From positions 1 through 34,326 of IMG/VR virus record IMGVR_UViG_3300033149_004060: a stretch of DNA of 34,326 bases. One strand, 5' to 3'. The stretch's first letter is position 1; every line of letters begins with the position of its first letter. Shown piece after piece: positions 174 through 27,145 of this stretch. The DNA is from a virus. A program made the position numbers and the translations under genes. The notes beneath the pieces are model-generated. The model worked only from the letters and a program-made list of their open reading frames with translations. It did not search any database and was not told where the DNA came from.

Positions 174-353
174 TCACCATCCAAGCGGTTGTTTTGTTAC
201 CAACCTCAAGAGTATATTTACTATGGGTAGTCCTCTTGCCAGCCAAGTTTCTACATTTTCTACTTTTCCAGTATATCCTGCATATACTATTGCAGCTACT
301 GAAATTATATTTACCCATAGTGTTTTACTTGTCCACCAATGTTTGTTTTCCAT
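174..353 (-). CDS. small holin-like membrane protein
   Basis: A 59-residue protein with a short polar start (MENKHWWTSKT), one clear hydrophobic segment (LWVNIISVAAIVYAGY, about residues 10-25) and a second weaker one (GLPIVNILLRLV) near the end. Size and pattern match phage holin-like proteins that open the membrane at lysis. The ATG at 353 is preferred over the one at 359 because AGGAGG sits 8 bases upstream of it but nearly touches the other. It lies directly downstream of the structured non-coding region and overlaps the signal of the junction-spanning gene. No lytic enzyme is recognisable nearby, so a role in lysis is inference; a structural membrane role is possible. Confidence 0.72.
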   Translation of the reverse strand: MENKHWWTSKTLWVNIISVAAIVYAGYTGKVENVETWLARGLPIVNILLRLVTKQPLGW

Positions 354-393
354 TTCCATCTCCTCCTATATTAGTGGTGGGAGTAGGGATCTG

Positions 394-413
394 AAAAAAA
401 ACTCCCCGACACC
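394..413 (-). terminator. stem plus T8 at end of structured region
   Basis: On the minus strand GGTGTCGGGGAG is followed directly by TTTTTTTT (401-394). The GC-rich arm is complementary to 537-526 (12 Watson-Crick pairs including ACTCCCCGACAC). The T-run alone would suffice as an archaeal terminator; the stem resembles an intrinsic one, although the loop is unusually long (about 113 nt). It precedes the holin-like gene, so read-through could control that gene. Confidence 0.5.
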
Positions 414-758
414 TTATGATAAAATGCGGCAATGATGTAAATCGGAAGCATACAAGGACGCCCATCTTCGTGATCGAGGTTCTACCACCGCACCATTCAG
501 ATCCGAACTTCCCATTTCAATTAGTGTGTCGGGGAGTCCGTCGAGCTTGGATATTATTGAGGAGCCAACGACTTCCCGTTTCGGTGCGGGTTACAAGCCT
601 CTCCCCGACACTTTAACTCGGCAGGGTTGCAGAGCAAGGTACTCCTTTTCCAGTCTCGGCATAAAATCCCAATCCAGCTACTCACTTCATAAATGCCCGA
701 CCGAGTTGATGAGTTAGTACTTCACGGCAACAGAAGTTCGATTCAGTATTCAAACTTC
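394..758 (-). ncRNA. candidate structured RNA / attenuator upstream of holin-like gene
   Basis: A gene-free stretch, visibly richer in G+C than its neighbours, with several long complementary segments. In minus-strand order these are: a hairpin at 758-733 (9-bp stem including one G-U); a 7-bp stem pairing 707-701 with 621-615, enclosing a TTGC-AGA-GCAA mini-hairpin (637-627); a perfect 11-bp stem pairing 611-601 with 536-526, enclosing a CCCG/CGGG hairpin; and a third copy of GTGTCGGGGAG at 412-402 that can pair with the same 536-526 segment and is followed at once by eight T. The 536-526 segment thus has two mutually exclusive partners, as in an antiterminator/terminator switch. Minus orientation is favoured by the T8 tract and by the flanking genes. 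I do not recognise a known family; it is not a tRNA. A stable small RNA is the main alternative to a leader. Confidence 0.6.
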
Positions 759-803
759 CTATATCCATTTTCTTTTATTAGTTTATAAAGTTTATTGTTA
801 TCC

Positions 804-1488: not shown

Positions 1489-1806
1489 TCATCCCTCCAA
1501 AAAACATCTGTAATATTCATCTTCAATATACTTTATTTCTTTATTTTTACCTATATAAATAGAATGCCAAAATTTTCCTATTGTTATGGGCGCATAGGGA
1601 TTTCTATCCATTATCATATCTACTTTTCGTTCATGTAAAATAATATCTTTTACTATCTCACAAATAGTATCTTCGGAAGGTGCGAGTGTATAAGATATAC
1701 CTGACTCATCTATCCCTTTTAAGTACCATGTAGGATATTTACTATCACGATATTTAGGATGTTTACATACCCCAGGTCTTATAACTATTTTGATAGTGCC
1801 ACTCAT
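1489..1806 (-). CDS. hypothetical protein
   Basis: A 105-residue soluble protein with no family I recognise. It contains a KYPTWYLKGIDESGISYTLA stretch that looks like beta strands and a C-terminal NKEIKYIEDEYYRCFLEG segment. It overlaps the stop of the ParB-methyltransferase gene by 4 bases, so it is co-translated with it and might assist it, but nothing in the sequence proves that. Confidence 0.75.
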   Translation of the reverse strand: MSGTIKIVIRPGVCKHPKYRDSKYPTWYLKGIDESGISYTLAPSEDTICEIVKDIILHERKVDMIMDRNPYAPITIGKFWHSIYIGKNKEIKYIEDEYYRCFLEG

Positions 1807-3002
1807 TTACTGCACCTCTTTATAGAAATAAGATATTTTTCTTCTTCAATTTCATAAGCTATACACTTCCTTTTCTTTAGTTTACATGCCCATGGAATTG
1901 TACCTGTTCCACAAAATGGATCTAATATCAAATCGTTAGGCTCTGAAAAACGGTCTAACAAGGTAATGAATGGTTCTACTGATTGTTGCCATTTGTCTAA
2001 CTCTTTATTTGGTGCAGGGCTATCTATTAAATCACAAAATTGATGAGGTTTCTTCATTGGTGGTTTTTGATATATTAGGATTGGTTTCATCCTGCAACTG
2101 ACATTCTTTTGAAATACTATTTGTTTTTTTCCAAGATGATTTAGACCTGCTAACCAGAAATAATCCAACTGTCCACCCAGATATTTCATGACCTCTGGTA
2201 AATATGTTTGGCCTGAATATGATATTAAAAAACCAGATGGTTTCAAAACTCTCTTTGCTTCCATTGCTAAAGCTTCATATAAATATAAATATTCTTTTGG
2301 ATATGGTGGATCTGTTAAAATTAAATCTATTGAATTATCTTTTACATTTTTTATTAAGTCTCTAAAATCTCCTAATTGAATATCAATACCTACATCTTTA
2401 AGCGAATCTTCTACCTTTTTTCTCTCTTCTTTTATTACTTGTGCTTCTTTTTGGCGTTCCATTTTTTTGATTTCTTTATATACACCATATATCGACTCTT
2501 CTCCAGTTTCTACTTTTGAAATTAGTGTTGGATCACCGTATTTCAATATTTTTTTCATGTAATCAACTGTACCATGAGAAACTCCAGCAAGCTTTGCAAC
2601 TTTTTCTCTAGTGTTTACAGGGTCTAAACTTTTTGCCAAATTTGGCAAAAGGTCAGTTCGTGTTCCCTGGTTCTTCTTGGCCTTCTCTCTGAGAATATCC
2701 TCATATTTCAAACCGAGTTCTATGCGTTGTGCCTTGATTAAATTCCTTCGTGCTAACTGATTTTCAATAATCCACAGCTTGACATCATATACATCCTCGA
2801 AATCCATTTCTACAACTTCAAAAGGAATATTGTATTTTTTACAGATTTTATATCTGTGGTGGCCATCTACAATTGTGCCGTTCCACACAACCAAAGCATC
2901 TCTACATCCTTCTTTTTTTAAACTATTCTCTAAATTTTCTTCTTCCTCTATTGTGAGAGGAGGTATCAATTCTTCAAATTCTTTACTTATTTTTAAATTC
3001 AT
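1803..3002 (-). CDS. ParB-like domain / DNA methyltransferase fusion (DPPY type)
   Basis: A 399-residue two-part protein. Residues about 1-85 are a ParB/sulfiredoxin-like domain with the typical DGHHRY motif (46-51). Residues 131-155 form a KorB-like helix-turn-helix (TREKVAKLAGVSHGTVDYMK). A basic helical linker follows. The C-terminal half is an amino-methyltransferase with DPPYP (231-235) before DPFCGTG (361-367), the beta-class motif order. DPPY suggests N6-adenine, but N4-cytosine cannot be excluded. It should methylate viral or host DNA, with the ParB/HTH part probably adding DNA recognition. No restriction enzyme is adjacent, so it is likely a solitary modification enzyme for protection or regulation. 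It overlaps both neighbours by 4 bases. It is one of two such fusions here; the other is at 25900-27132. Confidence 0.9.
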   Translation of the reverse strand: MNLKISKEFEELIPPLTIEEEENLENSLKKEGCRDALVVWNGTIVDGHHRYKICKKYNIPFEVVEMDFEDVYDVKLWIIENQLARRNLIKAQRIELGLKYEDILREKAKKNQGTRTDLLPNLAKSLDPVNTREKVAKLAGVSHGTVDYMKKILKYGDPTLISKVETGEESIYGVYKEIKKMERQKEAQVIKEERKKVEDSLKDVGIDIQLGDFRDLIKNVKDNSIDLILTDPPYPKEYLYLYEALAMEAKRVLKPSGFLISYSGQTYLPEVMKYLGGQLDYFWLAGLNHLGKKQIVFQKNVSCRMKPILIYQKPPMKKPHQFCDLIDSPAPNKELDKWQQSVEPFITLLDRFSEPNDLILDPFCGTGTIPWACKLKKRKCIAYEIEEEKYLISIKRCSK

Positions 3003-3451
3003 TCTGTCACCTCGTCAAGTTCTGGTTTGTACAAAATATACTTATCTCTCTTGCCGAACATACCGTGTTTATATACTTTAATCCTTCCATCCATACACAT
3101 TTGATCAAAATATGAGATCGACGTCAATCTCGACACTTTAAATTTTGAAACGCAGAATTTTATGAACCTCTCTCTAAAAAATGGCATTAATGTAAAATTA
3201 TTATAAATATATTCTAAACGTTTTTCACGCACACTTATATAGTTTTTTTCAGGTTCGGATGTAGTAAGAGTAGATAGTGTATTTCCAGAAGAACCGTTAT
3301 TTCGTTCTAAATACTCAGCCATTGCTTTTGCTAACTCTAAACCGTAAACAGTATGTTTTTTTCCGTATTTTTCCAAAACAAACGATTTAAATTTCTTTAC
3401 CACATCCACATATTCTTTCGGAACTCGTGCATTCACTCTTTCTTCTAACAT
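2999..3451 (-). CDS. putative DNA-binding regulator (RHH-like N-terminus, winged-helix-like C-terminus)
   Basis: A 150-residue protein. The start (ERVNARVPKEYVDVVKKFKS) and following helices resemble a ribbon-helix-helix domain. After a Ser/Thr-rich linker (residues about 53-65) comes a basic part (FIKFCVSKFKVSRLTSISYF, then GRIKVYKHGMFGKRDKYILY) that could be a winged helix. The gene has its own TATA box, and three copies of a TTGACGT motif lie between TATA and the start codon, with a fourth inside the gene at 3120-3130. That layout suggests it represses itself. It overlaps the methyltransferase gene by 4 bases, so it would control that gene too. The fold is by eye only. Confidence 0.7.
   Translation of the reverse strand: MLEERVNARVPKEYVDVVKKFKSFVLEKYGKKHTVYGLELAKAMAEYLERNNGSSGNTLSTLTTSEPEKNYISVREKRLEYIYNNFTLMPFFRERFIKFCVSKFKVSRLTSISYFDQMCMDGRIKVYKHGMFGKRDKYILYKPELDEVTE
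3120..3130 (-). promoter_or_regulatory. fourth operator copy inside the regulator gene
   Basis: AGATTGACGTC on the minus strand, identical over 11 bases to the first upstream copy but inverted and about 350 bases into the gene. It could be an auxiliary operator allowing looping, or chance. Confidence 0.4.
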
Positions 3452-3472: not shown

Positions 3473-3517
3473 AGATTGACGTCAAAGTAGTAAGATTGAC
3501 GTAAAATTGACGTCATT
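3473..3517. promoter_or_regulatory. operator array, three TTGACGT repeats
   Basis: AGATTGACGTCAA (3473-3485), AGATTGACGTAAA (3493-3505) and AATTGACGTCATT (3505-3517). The ATTGACGT cores start at 3475, 3495 and 3506, so the spacings are 20 and 11 bases, close to whole helical turns. The core TGACGTCA is itself palindromic. They lie just downstream of the TATA box of the regulator gene, where a bound protein would block RNA polymerase. Confidence 0.7.
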
Positions 3518-3540
3518 CTGTATATATTATATATAATATT
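3518..3540 (-). promoter_or_regulatory. probable archaeal promoter of regulator-methyltransferase genes
   Basis: A 20-base run of A and T (AATATTATATATAATATATA on the minus strand, 3540-3521) provides a TATA box about 75 bases before the start codon, after the terminator at 3616-3629. No clear BRE is visible, so the exact box is uncertain. Confidence 0.5.
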
Positions 3541-3544
3541 ATAA

Positions 3545-3575
3545 GAATAGAATAGAATAGAATAGAATAGAATAG
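3545..3575. repeat. (AATAG)6 microsatellite
   Basis: Six perfect tandem AATAG units (3546-3575) with period-5 structure beginning at 3545. They sit immediately upstream of the AT-rich promoter. Unit number could vary by slippage and change promoter spacing or upstream activation. Confidence 0.9.
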
Positions 3576-3615
3576 AGCAAAAATTAGAATTTATAAATTT
3601 ATGTTTTATATTTTT

Positions 3616-5082: not shown

Positions 5083-5428
5083 TTATATCCTCCTCATATT
5101 TCATTAAGAATTTTGCCAAATTATCCGCATAATCTTCATTTTTTGTATTCATGACTATATGAGCGAGTTCGTGATATATTGTCTCTAATGTAAGCTCCTC
5201 AACAGAATATAACTTTCCAAAACGATCCTTAATATTCTGAGAACAATATTCAAATGCCTTAGTAACACCATCAAAATAGACTTCTATATTCTCTTTTAGA
5301 TCAGTTGCTCCTGTGATGACATTGTGTTGATCATCAAATACAGAACCGTCAGGGAGTATGACTACACCATCTAAGGCGCTATCATGTAATTTACAAAATC
5401 TAATTTTAATCAAGTCCCACACCCCCAT
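5075..5428 (-). CDS. small putative zinc metalloprotease (HELAH)
   Basis: A 117-residue protein with the gluzincin-type motif YHELAHIV (HELAH at 86-90). A possible third ligand or activating acidic residue is at E98/D99 in NTKNEDYADN. It is close to the minimal size for such a fold and resembles the ImmA/IrrE or minigluzincin type, known to cleave repressors in phages; the target here is unknown. First gene of the leftward operon. The ATG at 5428 is directly preceded in frame by a stop, so the start cannot lie further upstream. No ribosome site is visible before it. Confidence 0.72.
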   Translation of the reverse strand: MGVWDLIKIRFCKLHDSALDGVVILPDGSVFDDQHNVITGATDLKENIEVYFDGVTKAFEYCSQNIKDRFGKLYSVEELTLETIYHELAHIVMNTKNEDYADNLAKFLMKYEEDINE

Positions 5429-5510
5429 TTAAAAGGAGGCAATAAAATGAGTAAGCCTGACTGTTGCTGTTCATGAGTTTCAGACATCATACATAATATT
5501 TCGTCATAAA

Positions 5511-5530
5511 CTATTTAAAGCTTTCGTTAC
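5511..5530 (-). promoter_or_regulatory. archaeal promoter, leftward early operon
   Basis: The minus strand reads GTAACGAAAGCTTTAAATAG: BRE-like CGAAAG next to TATA-like CTTTAAATA. It shares CGAAAGCTTTA with the rightward promoter at 5967-5980, so the two early promoters probably use the same factors. Expected transcription start near 5490, giving a leader of about 60 bases. Confidence 0.75.
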
Positions 5531-5949
5531 TTTTACAAGACTGTATAACTAAACACTCAGAATTACAGAGATTTCAAAAAAGTGACTGAAAAAACCAATT
5601 TATATTTTTGCGAATAAGCCACGATCATAACTACGTACGTATAATAATACTCACGGGATTTTGACCCTCTTAAATCGTCTATACGTACGTAATAAACGTA
5701 CTGTAGCGTCATTTTTCACGATTTCCAGTTTACATATCTTAAGAGTTAAATTTTAACTTTATTTCTAAAATAAACGAAAAATATGAGTTTTTCATGTCAC
5801 TTATAGTTTTTAGGTGTTTGTCTTGTAGTCTTCTATATGAAGGAATACAATATATAGTATGTCTAAAATACGTCTATTGTACGTTAGAATTACGTCAATA
5901 GTAGTAAATAGTATATAGTGTAGTATATGTCTCACGTACGTATGAAGTT
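5531..5949. other. divergent control region with ACGTACGT repeats, candidate origin
   Basis: No convincing gene lies between 5429 and 6016. The stretch holds palindromic TACGTACGTA at 5632-5641 and 5682-5691 (50 bases apart), CACGTACGTA at 5933-5942 and GTACGTA at 5988-5994. Many looser ACGT-containing words (ACGTAC, TACGTC, GTACGTTAG) and TATAGT-type repeats at about 5850-5930 lie between them. A repeated palindrome set in an AT-rich gap between divergent operons fits an origin or a multi-site operator. Which one cannot be told from the sequence. Confidence 0.5.
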
Positions 5950-5963
5950 TTACAACGTTGTAA
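5950..5963. promoter_or_regulatory. 14-bp perfect palindrome upstream of rightward promoter
   Basis: TTACAACGTTGTAA, a perfect palindrome ending 4 bases before the BRE of the rightward promoter. The position is that of an archaeal activator or repressor site for a dimeric protein. It does not match the TTGACGT operators, so a different regulator is expected. Confidence 0.6.
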
Positions 5964-5966
5964 CAC

Positions 5967-5980
5967 CGAAAGCTTTATAA
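5967..5980 (+). promoter_or_regulatory. archaeal promoter, rightward operon
   Basis: CGAAAGCTTTATAA: BRE-like purine-rich CGAAAG followed by TATA box CTTTATAA. Expected start of transcription about 6002, only some 15 bases before the ATG at 6017, leaving just room for the AGGTGA ribosome site. Confidence 0.8.
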
Positions 5981-6016
5981 AGGGGAAGTACGTAAGTATA
6001 TTAAAGGTGAGAAAAA

Positions 6017-6277
6017 ATGAAGGATAAAAACATGAACATCAAAAACGCAACTGGGAACGAAGCCCAGCCCGGACAGGCGGAAAAACCTGACGAAATAATT
6101 GAAAAGAAGAGAGCTGAGGTATGTGCAGCTCTCACAAACATGGCAGCGATATGCTTAGATGAGAGATTATCTATAAAAGAAGGAACAGTACATATCGAAC
6201 ATATAGAGAAAGTACTGAACCTATATTTTGAAATTCTGTTAGAAAAAATAGACGCTCTTAAACGTGAGGGGGAATAA
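6017..6277 (+). CDS. hypothetical protein, first gene of rightward operon
   Basis: An 86-residue protein with AGGTGA ribosome site. The first 30 residues are polar and probably disordered (GNEAQPGQAEKPDE). The rest is helical (EVCAALTNMAAICLDERLSI, then IEKVLNLYFEILLEKIDALK). As the first product of the only rightward operon, beside the operator palindrome, it is a candidate early or regulatory protein. No HTH is evident and no family is recognised. Confidence 0.75.
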   Translation: MKDKNMNIKNATGNEAQPGQAEKPDEIIEKKRAEVCAALTNMAAICLDERLSIKEGTVHIEHIEKVLNLYFEILLEKIDALKREGE

Positions 6278-6451
6278 ATGAATACAAAATATCTCTACAG
6301 ACACTGGACAGATGATCTCTTTGTTGCAATATCAATCAAAGAAAATTCAGAGAATATGGGTCGTATTGCCCGCATACGACCACGTATAAGGAAGGGAAAG
6401 AGAGACGGCTGGTGTGTCTATGAATATATGAATATGAAGAAGGTGGAATGA
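6278..6451 (+). CDS. small basic hypothetical protein
   Basis: A 57-residue protein starting at the first base after the previous stop. The centre is very basic (RIARIRPRIRKGKRDGW), flanked by aromatic segments (KYLYRHWTDDLF and CVYEYMNM). The charge suggests nucleic-acid contact. Its stop (TGA 6449-6451) abuts the next start. No family recognised. Confidence 0.68.
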   Translation: MNTKYLYRHWTDDLFVAISIKENSENMGRIARIRPRIRKGKRDGWCVYEYMNMKKVE

Positions 6452-6868
6452 ATGAAATATGATAAACTTGTAAAAAAAAGGCACGCAGATATTCTGAGTG
6501 CAAATGATGAAACACTTGAGGAAGCAAGAAAAAAGGAACATATCGTAGAATATGAAGATAAGATAATATGGAAACTAATGAGAAAGGGGTATATAGTGGT
6601 AGAAATACCACAATGGTTGGCAGAGAAAAAAATACTCTGTTATGGTGGTTCGTTTCCACCAACAATATTTTTTGGAAAAATTGAAAAGGAGACTGAGAAA
6701 GCTATATTTTTTGAGGGAAAAGCGATGGAAACAGATGAGAGAAAACTCAAAACAATTCTTGAAAAAATAATTGAAAATGAAGTTACAAAACCACTCGAGG
6801 AACTTTTCGGCATGAATCATATATCTGCGTGGCTTCCAAGAAGCCAAGTAAAAATTTGGGTGATCTAA
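6452..6868 (+). CDS. hypothetical protein
   Basis: A 138-residue soluble protein. N-terminal helices (LSANDETLEEARKKEHI), a central stretch of probable strands with an FPPTIFFGK motif, and a C-terminal helix (KLKTILEKIIENEVTKPLEE) followed by AWLPRSQVKIWVI. No family recognised. AAGGTGG sits 8 bases before the ATG. Confidence 0.75.
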   Translation: MKYDKLVKKRHADILSANDETLEEARKKEHIVEYEDKIIWKLMRKGYIVVEIPQWLAEKKILCYGGSFPPTIFFGKIEKETEKAIFFEGKAMETDERKLKTILEKIIENEVTKPLEELFGMNHISAWLPRSQVKIWVI

Positions 6869-6994
6869 ATGAAAATAAAATGCCCAAAATGCGGACACGA
6901 ATGGAACTACAGCGGAAGAGCAAAAGACGATGAATTTGTAACCTGTTCAAAATGTCATCGTTTGCGTCTCTTGAAAAATTACATACATCTTTAA
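6869..6994 (+). CDS. zinc-ribbon mini-protein
   Basis: A 41-residue protein made almost entirely of one zinc ribbon: CPKCGHEW at residues 5-12 and CSKC at 27-30. The start follows the previous stop without a gap. Last gene of the rightward operon, followed by a T-tract terminator. It may bind nucleic acid or host RNA polymerase-type proteins; unproven. Confidence 0.75.
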   Translation: MKIKCPKCGHEWNYSGRAKDDEFVTCSKCHRLRLLKNYIHL

Positions 6995-7008
6995 TTTTTC
7001 TTTTTTTT
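6995..7008 (+). terminator. T-rich terminator, rightward operon
   Basis: TTTTTCTTTTTTTT directly after the stop codon of the zinc-ribbon gene and overlapping the end of the convergent tail gene. No hairpin is needed for archaeal termination. Confidence 0.65.
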
Positions 7009-25899: not shown

Positions 25900-27132
25900 T
25901 TAAAGTTTATAGGCTTTTTTACCTGTGAAGTCTTCCCATCTTTTTATTATTACACTACAGTAAACTGTGTCTATTTCCATTATATAACAGATACGATTGA
26001 GTTGTTCACAAGCTATAAGAGTTGATCCAGAACCACCGAAGGGATCTAAAACAATAGCATTTTTCATTGAATAAGCTCTTATACACCTTGAAGGAAGTTC
26101 CAACGGAAAAACAGCAGGATGACCTATTTTTTGCTGTTCAACTCCCATAACTTGAGTTATTTCCCATACATTTGTATCGTATCTGGTTAAGTAATTTTCA
26201 TCTATTGATTCAAAGGATGGGTGTTCTTCTTTTCGAAATATTAAAATAGGTTCCCACTTAAAAGCAGGAAAATATTTATGTGTTTTCTTTATATGTCTAT
26301 GTCGTTGACTATAAACAGCCCCTACTTTCACCCAAGCTATTTTATCCTTATAAATAAATCCACATTTCTTTAAAATTTCTGAATGATGCGCTGGAATATC
26401 TAAATGGTTAGTTACATCATCACCTACATTCCAACAGATTAGAAATGGATTTCCAACAAAAAGAGTAATGTTGTTTATTGCTTTTTCTATGTCTTTTAAA
26501 TAATCATTATATTCACTCCATTGTGAATATTCTCTCTCATTATAATAAGGTGGTGAAGTAACTACTAAATTAATTTTTTCCCCATTCATAAGCTTTTCTA
26601 CATCTTGAGAATTTGTAGCATCTCCACACATAAGCCTATGATCTCCAAGTTGCCAAATATCTCCTCTTTTAACATTATAAATATTTTTTTCTTCTGGTAT
26701 AAAATTATCTTCTTTTATTTCTATATCTTCTTCTAAAAGTTTTTCTAACTCTTTTTTTGAAAAGCCCGTTTCTAAACAGATCTCAGTTAGATCCATATCA
26801 TTTTCTAAGTCTTCTATTACTTTTTTGAGCAGATCCTCTTCTGGAGAGCCTCTGAGGTTGTTCATTGCGAGAGTAAGAAGTTTTGCATTACGATCATTCA
26901 CATCTACTATTACGCATTCGATCTCTGTGTATCCGGCCTCTTTACAACAGAGCCATCTATGATAACCGTCAATGATCTCATAGTAATTTTCTTTTTTTCT
27001 GACTAAGATTGGTTGTAGATAGCCGTCTTTTGTTATTTTATCTCTTAAACATCTTAACTTACCGTTATCTATCTTATTTGGATTCCAGGTGTTTGGTTTG
27101 AGTTGATTTATGTCTATTTTTTTTATTTCCAT
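25900..27132 (-). CDS. ParB-like domain / DNA methyltransferase fusion (TSPPY type)
   Basis: A 410-residue protein. Residues 1-80 are a ParB-like domain with DGYHRW (55-60). A helical linker with an HTH-like stretch (LTEICLETGFSKKELEKLL, about 115-133) follows. The methyltransferase part has TSPPYY (192-197), usual for N4-cytosine enzymes, then DPFGGSG (363-369). The motif order matches the other fusion at 1803-3002, but the catalytic motif differs, so the two probably modify different bases or sites. The ATG at 27132 with AAGGTG 6 bases upstream is chosen over the GTG at 27141. No adjacent restriction enzyme. Confidence 0.9.
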   Translation of the reverse strand: MEIKKIDINQLKPNTWNPNKIDNGKLRCLRDKITKDGYLQPILVRKKENYYEIIDGYHRWLCCKEAGYTEIECVIVDVNDRNAKLLTLAMNNLRGSPEEDLLKKVIEDLENDMDLTEICLETGFSKKELEKLLEEDIEIKEDNFIPEEKNIYNVKRGDIWQLGDHRLMCGDATNSQDVEKLMNGEKINLVVTSPPYYNEREYSQWSEYNDYLKDIEKAINNITLFVGNPFLICWNVGDDVTNHLDIPAHHSEILKKCGFIYKDKIAWVKVGAVYSQRHRHIKKTHKYFPAFKWEPILIFRKEEHPSFESIDENYLTRYDTNVWEITQVMGVEQQKIGHPAVFPLELPSRCIRAYSMKNAIVLDPFGGSGSTLIACEQLNRICYIMEIDTVYCSVIIKRWEDFTGKKAYKL

Positions 27133-27145
27133 CTTAAGCACCTTC

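Follow-up and report, generated by a model that had tools for sequence, protein, structure and literature searches.

To our knowledge, descriptions of structured non-coding RNAs from viruses whose hosts are uncultured and possibly archaeal are few. Among phages and prophages, GOLLD and ROOL are large structured non-coding RNAs. GOLLD rises during lysis (PMC12286853). In archaea, five to six T are enough to end transcription, with no hairpin needed (PMC2253867). The stretch described here, positions 394 to 758 of a virus record, is a candidate for a further structured viral RNA, shorter than many GOLLD members, which exceed 800 nt.

The window analysed is the whole IMG/VR record of 34,326 bases, in which nearly all genes lie on the minus strand. 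Terminase, portal, head and tape-measure proteins are encoded, indicating a tailed virus. The stretch is flanked by a 168-aa gene at 804-1310 and by a small gene that runs from 174 to either 353 or 359. The 168-aa protein is predicted to be all-helical, in a model of moderate confidence, and profile and fold searches detected no sequence or fold relative of it. The idea that it is a recombinase, which came from reading its sequence, found no profile or fold support. Alignment placed the small gene in a family with the motif KTLWVN, in which 6 of the 11 members have a match to a PHROG annotated as holin; the stretch does lie upstream of a holin-like gene, as the earlier note had it. Elsewhere in the window, two proteins (1803-3002 and 25900-27141) each have matches among ParB-like as well as among DNA methyltransferase families, and three TTGACGTCA-like repeats with a short tandem AGAAT/AGAAT array (3473-3578) lie upstream of the gene starting at 3451. 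The features of the locus are as follows.

394 to 760, minus strand: proposed RNA gene of about 365 nt, a non-coding GC island framed by a TATA-like box and T8; both ends putative
782 to 790, minus strand: TATA-like box CTTTATAAA, a putative promoter for the RNA; it lies some 23-31 nt ahead of the 5' hairpin
733 to 758, minus strand: 5' hairpin H1 with a 9-bp stem; z -4.45, pairing probability up to 1.0
668 to 705, minus strand: hairpin CUCGGUC/GAUUGGG with an inner stem; pairing probability about 0.97
526 to 611, minus strand: 86-nt domain closed by A:B; z -2.87
601 to 611, minus strand: copy A of the repeat word, GUGUCGGGGAG, exact match
526 to 536, minus strand: copy B, CUCCCCGACAC, which can pair with A or with A2
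402 to 412, minus strand: copy A2, GUGUCGGGGAG, exact match
402 to 536, minus strand: 3' domain closed by B:A2; z -1.98, probability 0.999 in the finished RNA
401 to 394, minus strand: T8 run directly after A2, proposed terminator
379 to 395, minus strand: 17-nt segment beyond T8, 82% complementary to 512-496, with which it can pair in read-through transcripts
174 to 353, minus strand: small holin-like gene downstream of the stretch; a start at 353 suits the AGGAGG site better than one at 359

The 11-mer GTGTCGGGGAG is present in three exact copies, two direct and one inverted in between, and nowhere else in the genome; direct repeats of 15 bp are found at 402-416 and 601-615. A direct-inverted-direct layout of an 11-mer within 450 nt or less occurred once in the window, and in none of 200 window shuffles or 2000 local shuffles. 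A full upstream complement of the 3'-terminal 11-mer (A2, the last 11 bases before T8) was obtained in 0 of 20,000 shuffles. The T8 run itself is one of only two on the minus strand of the whole window. Both the three copies of the word and the T tract after the last of them are thus present where the earlier note had placed them.

The stretch had also been described as richer in GC than its surroundings and devoid of a gene, and both properties were recovered. Its GC content is about 0.50, against 0.337 for the genome, and 443-728 scores highest of all GC segments in the window, with 20.5 against a maximum of 15.6 in 60 shuffles. No open reading frame of at least 50 codons was found on the minus strand inside the stretch, and plus-strand frames of 66 and 63 aa gave no matches to anything. 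By codon usage, the frames tested in the stretch, these two included, differ from the virus's own genes and score as non-coding; the genes on either side score as coding. On these grounds we rejected a protein-coding role for both strands.

Folding gave a divided result. The earlier note had named a lack of folding energy below shuffled controls as grounds for refutation. Such a lack was observed for the whole stretch, which, folded on the minus strand, was equal to shuffles (z -0.8 to -0.9), but not for the sub-domains (z -2.0 to -4.5). Among 527 windows of 130 nt, the one starting at 521, which covers the 86-nt domain, had the lowest energy, partly owing to its GC content, its own z value being -2.65. 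With regard to the flanking hairpins that had been proposed, the one at 758-733 was clearly recovered, but the pairing of 707-701 with 621-615 was mostly disfavoured in the ensemble, which preferred 705-699 with 674-668. The plus strand gave fold values similar to those of the minus strand, as expected with inverted repeats. Since both strands fold similarly, we assigned the RNA to the minus strand from gene direction, T8 and the TATA-like box.

We then computed the pairing of copy B in growing transcripts by folding prefixes of a transcript starting at 803, a procedure that yields the equilibrium at each length and not the kinetics. Once B was present, the probability of A:B was 0.95-0.99; it was still 0.80 when the transcript reached 404 and fell to 0.01 at 402. 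The probability of B:A2 was 0.986 at 402 and 0.999 by 400. The computed switch is therefore sharp: B pairs upstream until A2 is complete and flips just before T8. When the transcript was extended to 360, the added helix 496-512/379-395 brought the A:B and B:A2 states to 0.47 and 0.53. Repeat statistics, local folding and this switch bear out the two competing stems for the middle copy, and a structured viral RNA with two such stems is supported.

Taken together, the repeats, the GC island, the lack of coding and the signals at either end point to a functional RNA as the likeliest explanation. We give an even chance that the stretch encodes a free-standing structured non-coding RNA, about 365 nt long, on the minus strand. 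Transcription would proceed from the TATA-type promoter at 790-782 and end at T8. During synthesis B would pair first with A, closing the 86-nt domain; A2, once complete, would displace A and close the 3' domain as a terminal stem. The finished RNA would thus fold differently from its precursor, and T8 would set it apart from the holin-like gene below. We infer that the RNA would be stable, and that its role, with whatever partner it may have, would most likely be that of a stable RNA made in infection, with a use comparable to that of other phage structured RNAs. Against the RNA gene stand the fold of the whole region, which equals that of shuffles, the moderate promoter match, the mixed signals on the host and the status of the sequence as an orphan without comparative support. 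We regard it as a credible orphan RNA of putative class and function. If it is made, its late strand exchange is directly testable with short in vitro transcripts.

The candidate promoter of this RNA, AATAAACTTTATAAAC at 796-781, ranked 103 of about 68,600 positions with a position weight matrix, a moderate score. It has the TATA part in common with the virus's other promoters and is devoid of the CGAAA element; the exact 9-mer CTTTATAAA recurs in the promoter of the gene at 6017. The distance of the TATA-like box is consistent with a start at the 5' hairpin. The other promoters are best seen in two near-identical, outward-facing sites, CGAAAGCTTTAAATAG and CGAAAGCTTTATAAAG, from 5526 and 5967, upstream of the genes at 5428 (minus strand) and 6017 (plus strand); a similar promoter-like site precedes 22969. 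We take these sites to resemble archaeal BRE plus TATA elements, and the virus's promoters elsewhere are likely to be of archaeal type. The divergent intergenic region at 5506-6010 contains four TACGTACGTA-like repeats between the two outward promoters, which stand around some 440 bp, and may be a regulatory switch or an origin of the virus. The adjacent gene block at 6017-6994 is on the plus strand, unlike nearly all other genes, and its last gene encodes a CxxC zinc-ribbon protein, followed by a T8 at 7001.

The host is possibly archaeal, and sequence comparison gives a mixed picture of it. The terminase (47% identical) and a stretch of the head protein (59%) have their nearest relative in a Thermoanaerobacterium phage, and the portal has a weak match to Halorubrum virus Humcor1. 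In an archaeal host, the T8 would have more than the five T on the sense strand that characterize an archaeal oligo-T terminator. B:A2 need not then be a terminator hairpin, because oligo-T alone can end transcription in such a host.

This last point weakens the reading of the stretch as a leader attenuator of the holin-like gene, in which A:B would allow read-through, B:A2 with T8 would stop transcription, and a signal of infection would set the amount or time of the lysis protein. The computed stems are indeed mutually exclusive, the second one adjoining the T run, and the location upstream of a holin-like gene, as well as the further competing helix formed beside the ribosome site in the read-through transcript, is in its favour. 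However, the candidate terminator stem B:A2 has a loop of 113 nt, and no bacterial intrinsic terminator (a compact GC-rich hairpin with a loop of 3-8, then a T run) was found in 1-1500. Neither a sensor domain nor a leader peptide was recognised, and the promoters are likely of archaeal type. Furthermore, in the holin loci checked, nearly all holin genes lie within about 50 nt of the upstream gene, the exceptions being one gap of 201 nt and one locus without a close upstream gene on its strand. Since these relatives have no such leader, lysis timing is unsupported by synteny, and the earlier proposal that attenuation could time lysis gained no support. We consider the leader attenuator unlikely.

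Somewhat less probable still is a function at the level of DNA, in which the 11-bp words would be binding sites of a viral protein for replication, partition or recombination and RNA pairing a by-product of their orientation. The nearly equal folding of both strands, the direct 15-bp repeats and the two ParB-like methyltransferase fusions encoded by the virus are consistent with such sites, but three of them leave a GC island almost 300 bp long unexplained, the word has no further copy in the genome and the neighbour at 804-1310 has no recognisable recombinase match. Recently acquired GC-rich foreign DNA, functionless in the virus and with incidental repeats, would account for a GC content unlike the genome and for its absence from holin-linked and terminase-linked relatives, but this is equally improbable, as no source was found among phages or plasmids and the repeats sit exactly at T8, far beyond chance.

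Returning to the RNA gene, we searched for relatives at several levels. No Rfam family, GOLLD and ROOL included, matched the window at gathering cut-offs, and only chance-level matches appeared at E up to 10, in agreement with the earlier statement that no known family was recognised. Archaeal RNase P RNA (RF00373) was rejected, with a weak best match at 526-611 (E 1.1). A tRNA and tmRNA search gave none in the stretch and no tRNA nearby. Blastn against phages and plasmids and two gapped DNA patterns run on viral contigs revealed no homologue. The stretch was not found in relatives reached through the 168-aa and 105-aa neighbours, the holin-like gene or the terminase; the two contigs nearest by terminase (60%) gave no match to it, and the repeat layout was not found across the collected relative loci. 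A single-sequence covariance model for the 86-nt domain detected no homologue in 280 kb including the window. In 295 genomes from the phylum to which the sole MAG match belongs, blastn gave two matches at chance level, about 30 nt long, and the RNA's own sequence had no match above chance elsewhere in the window. The collections may omit close relatives of the record, so that absence of matches is not proof of uniqueness. Novelty at the family level, which rests on this absence, is plausible. More tentatively, and with odds well short of even, the stretch may represent a novel class of viral RNA, in this case probably from an archaeal virus, that refolds by exchange of identical strands at transcript completion.

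Compared with known systems, the candidate RNA differs from GOLLD and ROOL by its lack of an Rfam match and of a tRNA nearby. Archaeal RNase P RNA is in a similar length class, but the score of 4.4 bits is far under the cut-off of 84. With bacterial attenuators (2:3 versus 3:4) the locus shares a central strand that can pair with either of two identical partners, the later one being followed by a T run; it differs from them in its 113-nt loop, in having no recognised sensor domain or leader peptide and in its likely archaeal-type promoters. Although no named archaeal RNA was matched and the assignment of the host is itself tentative, the locus is like archaeal oligo-T-ended RNA genes in the distance of its TATA-like box, in its oligo-T end and in specifying a GC-rich RNA within an AT-rich genome.
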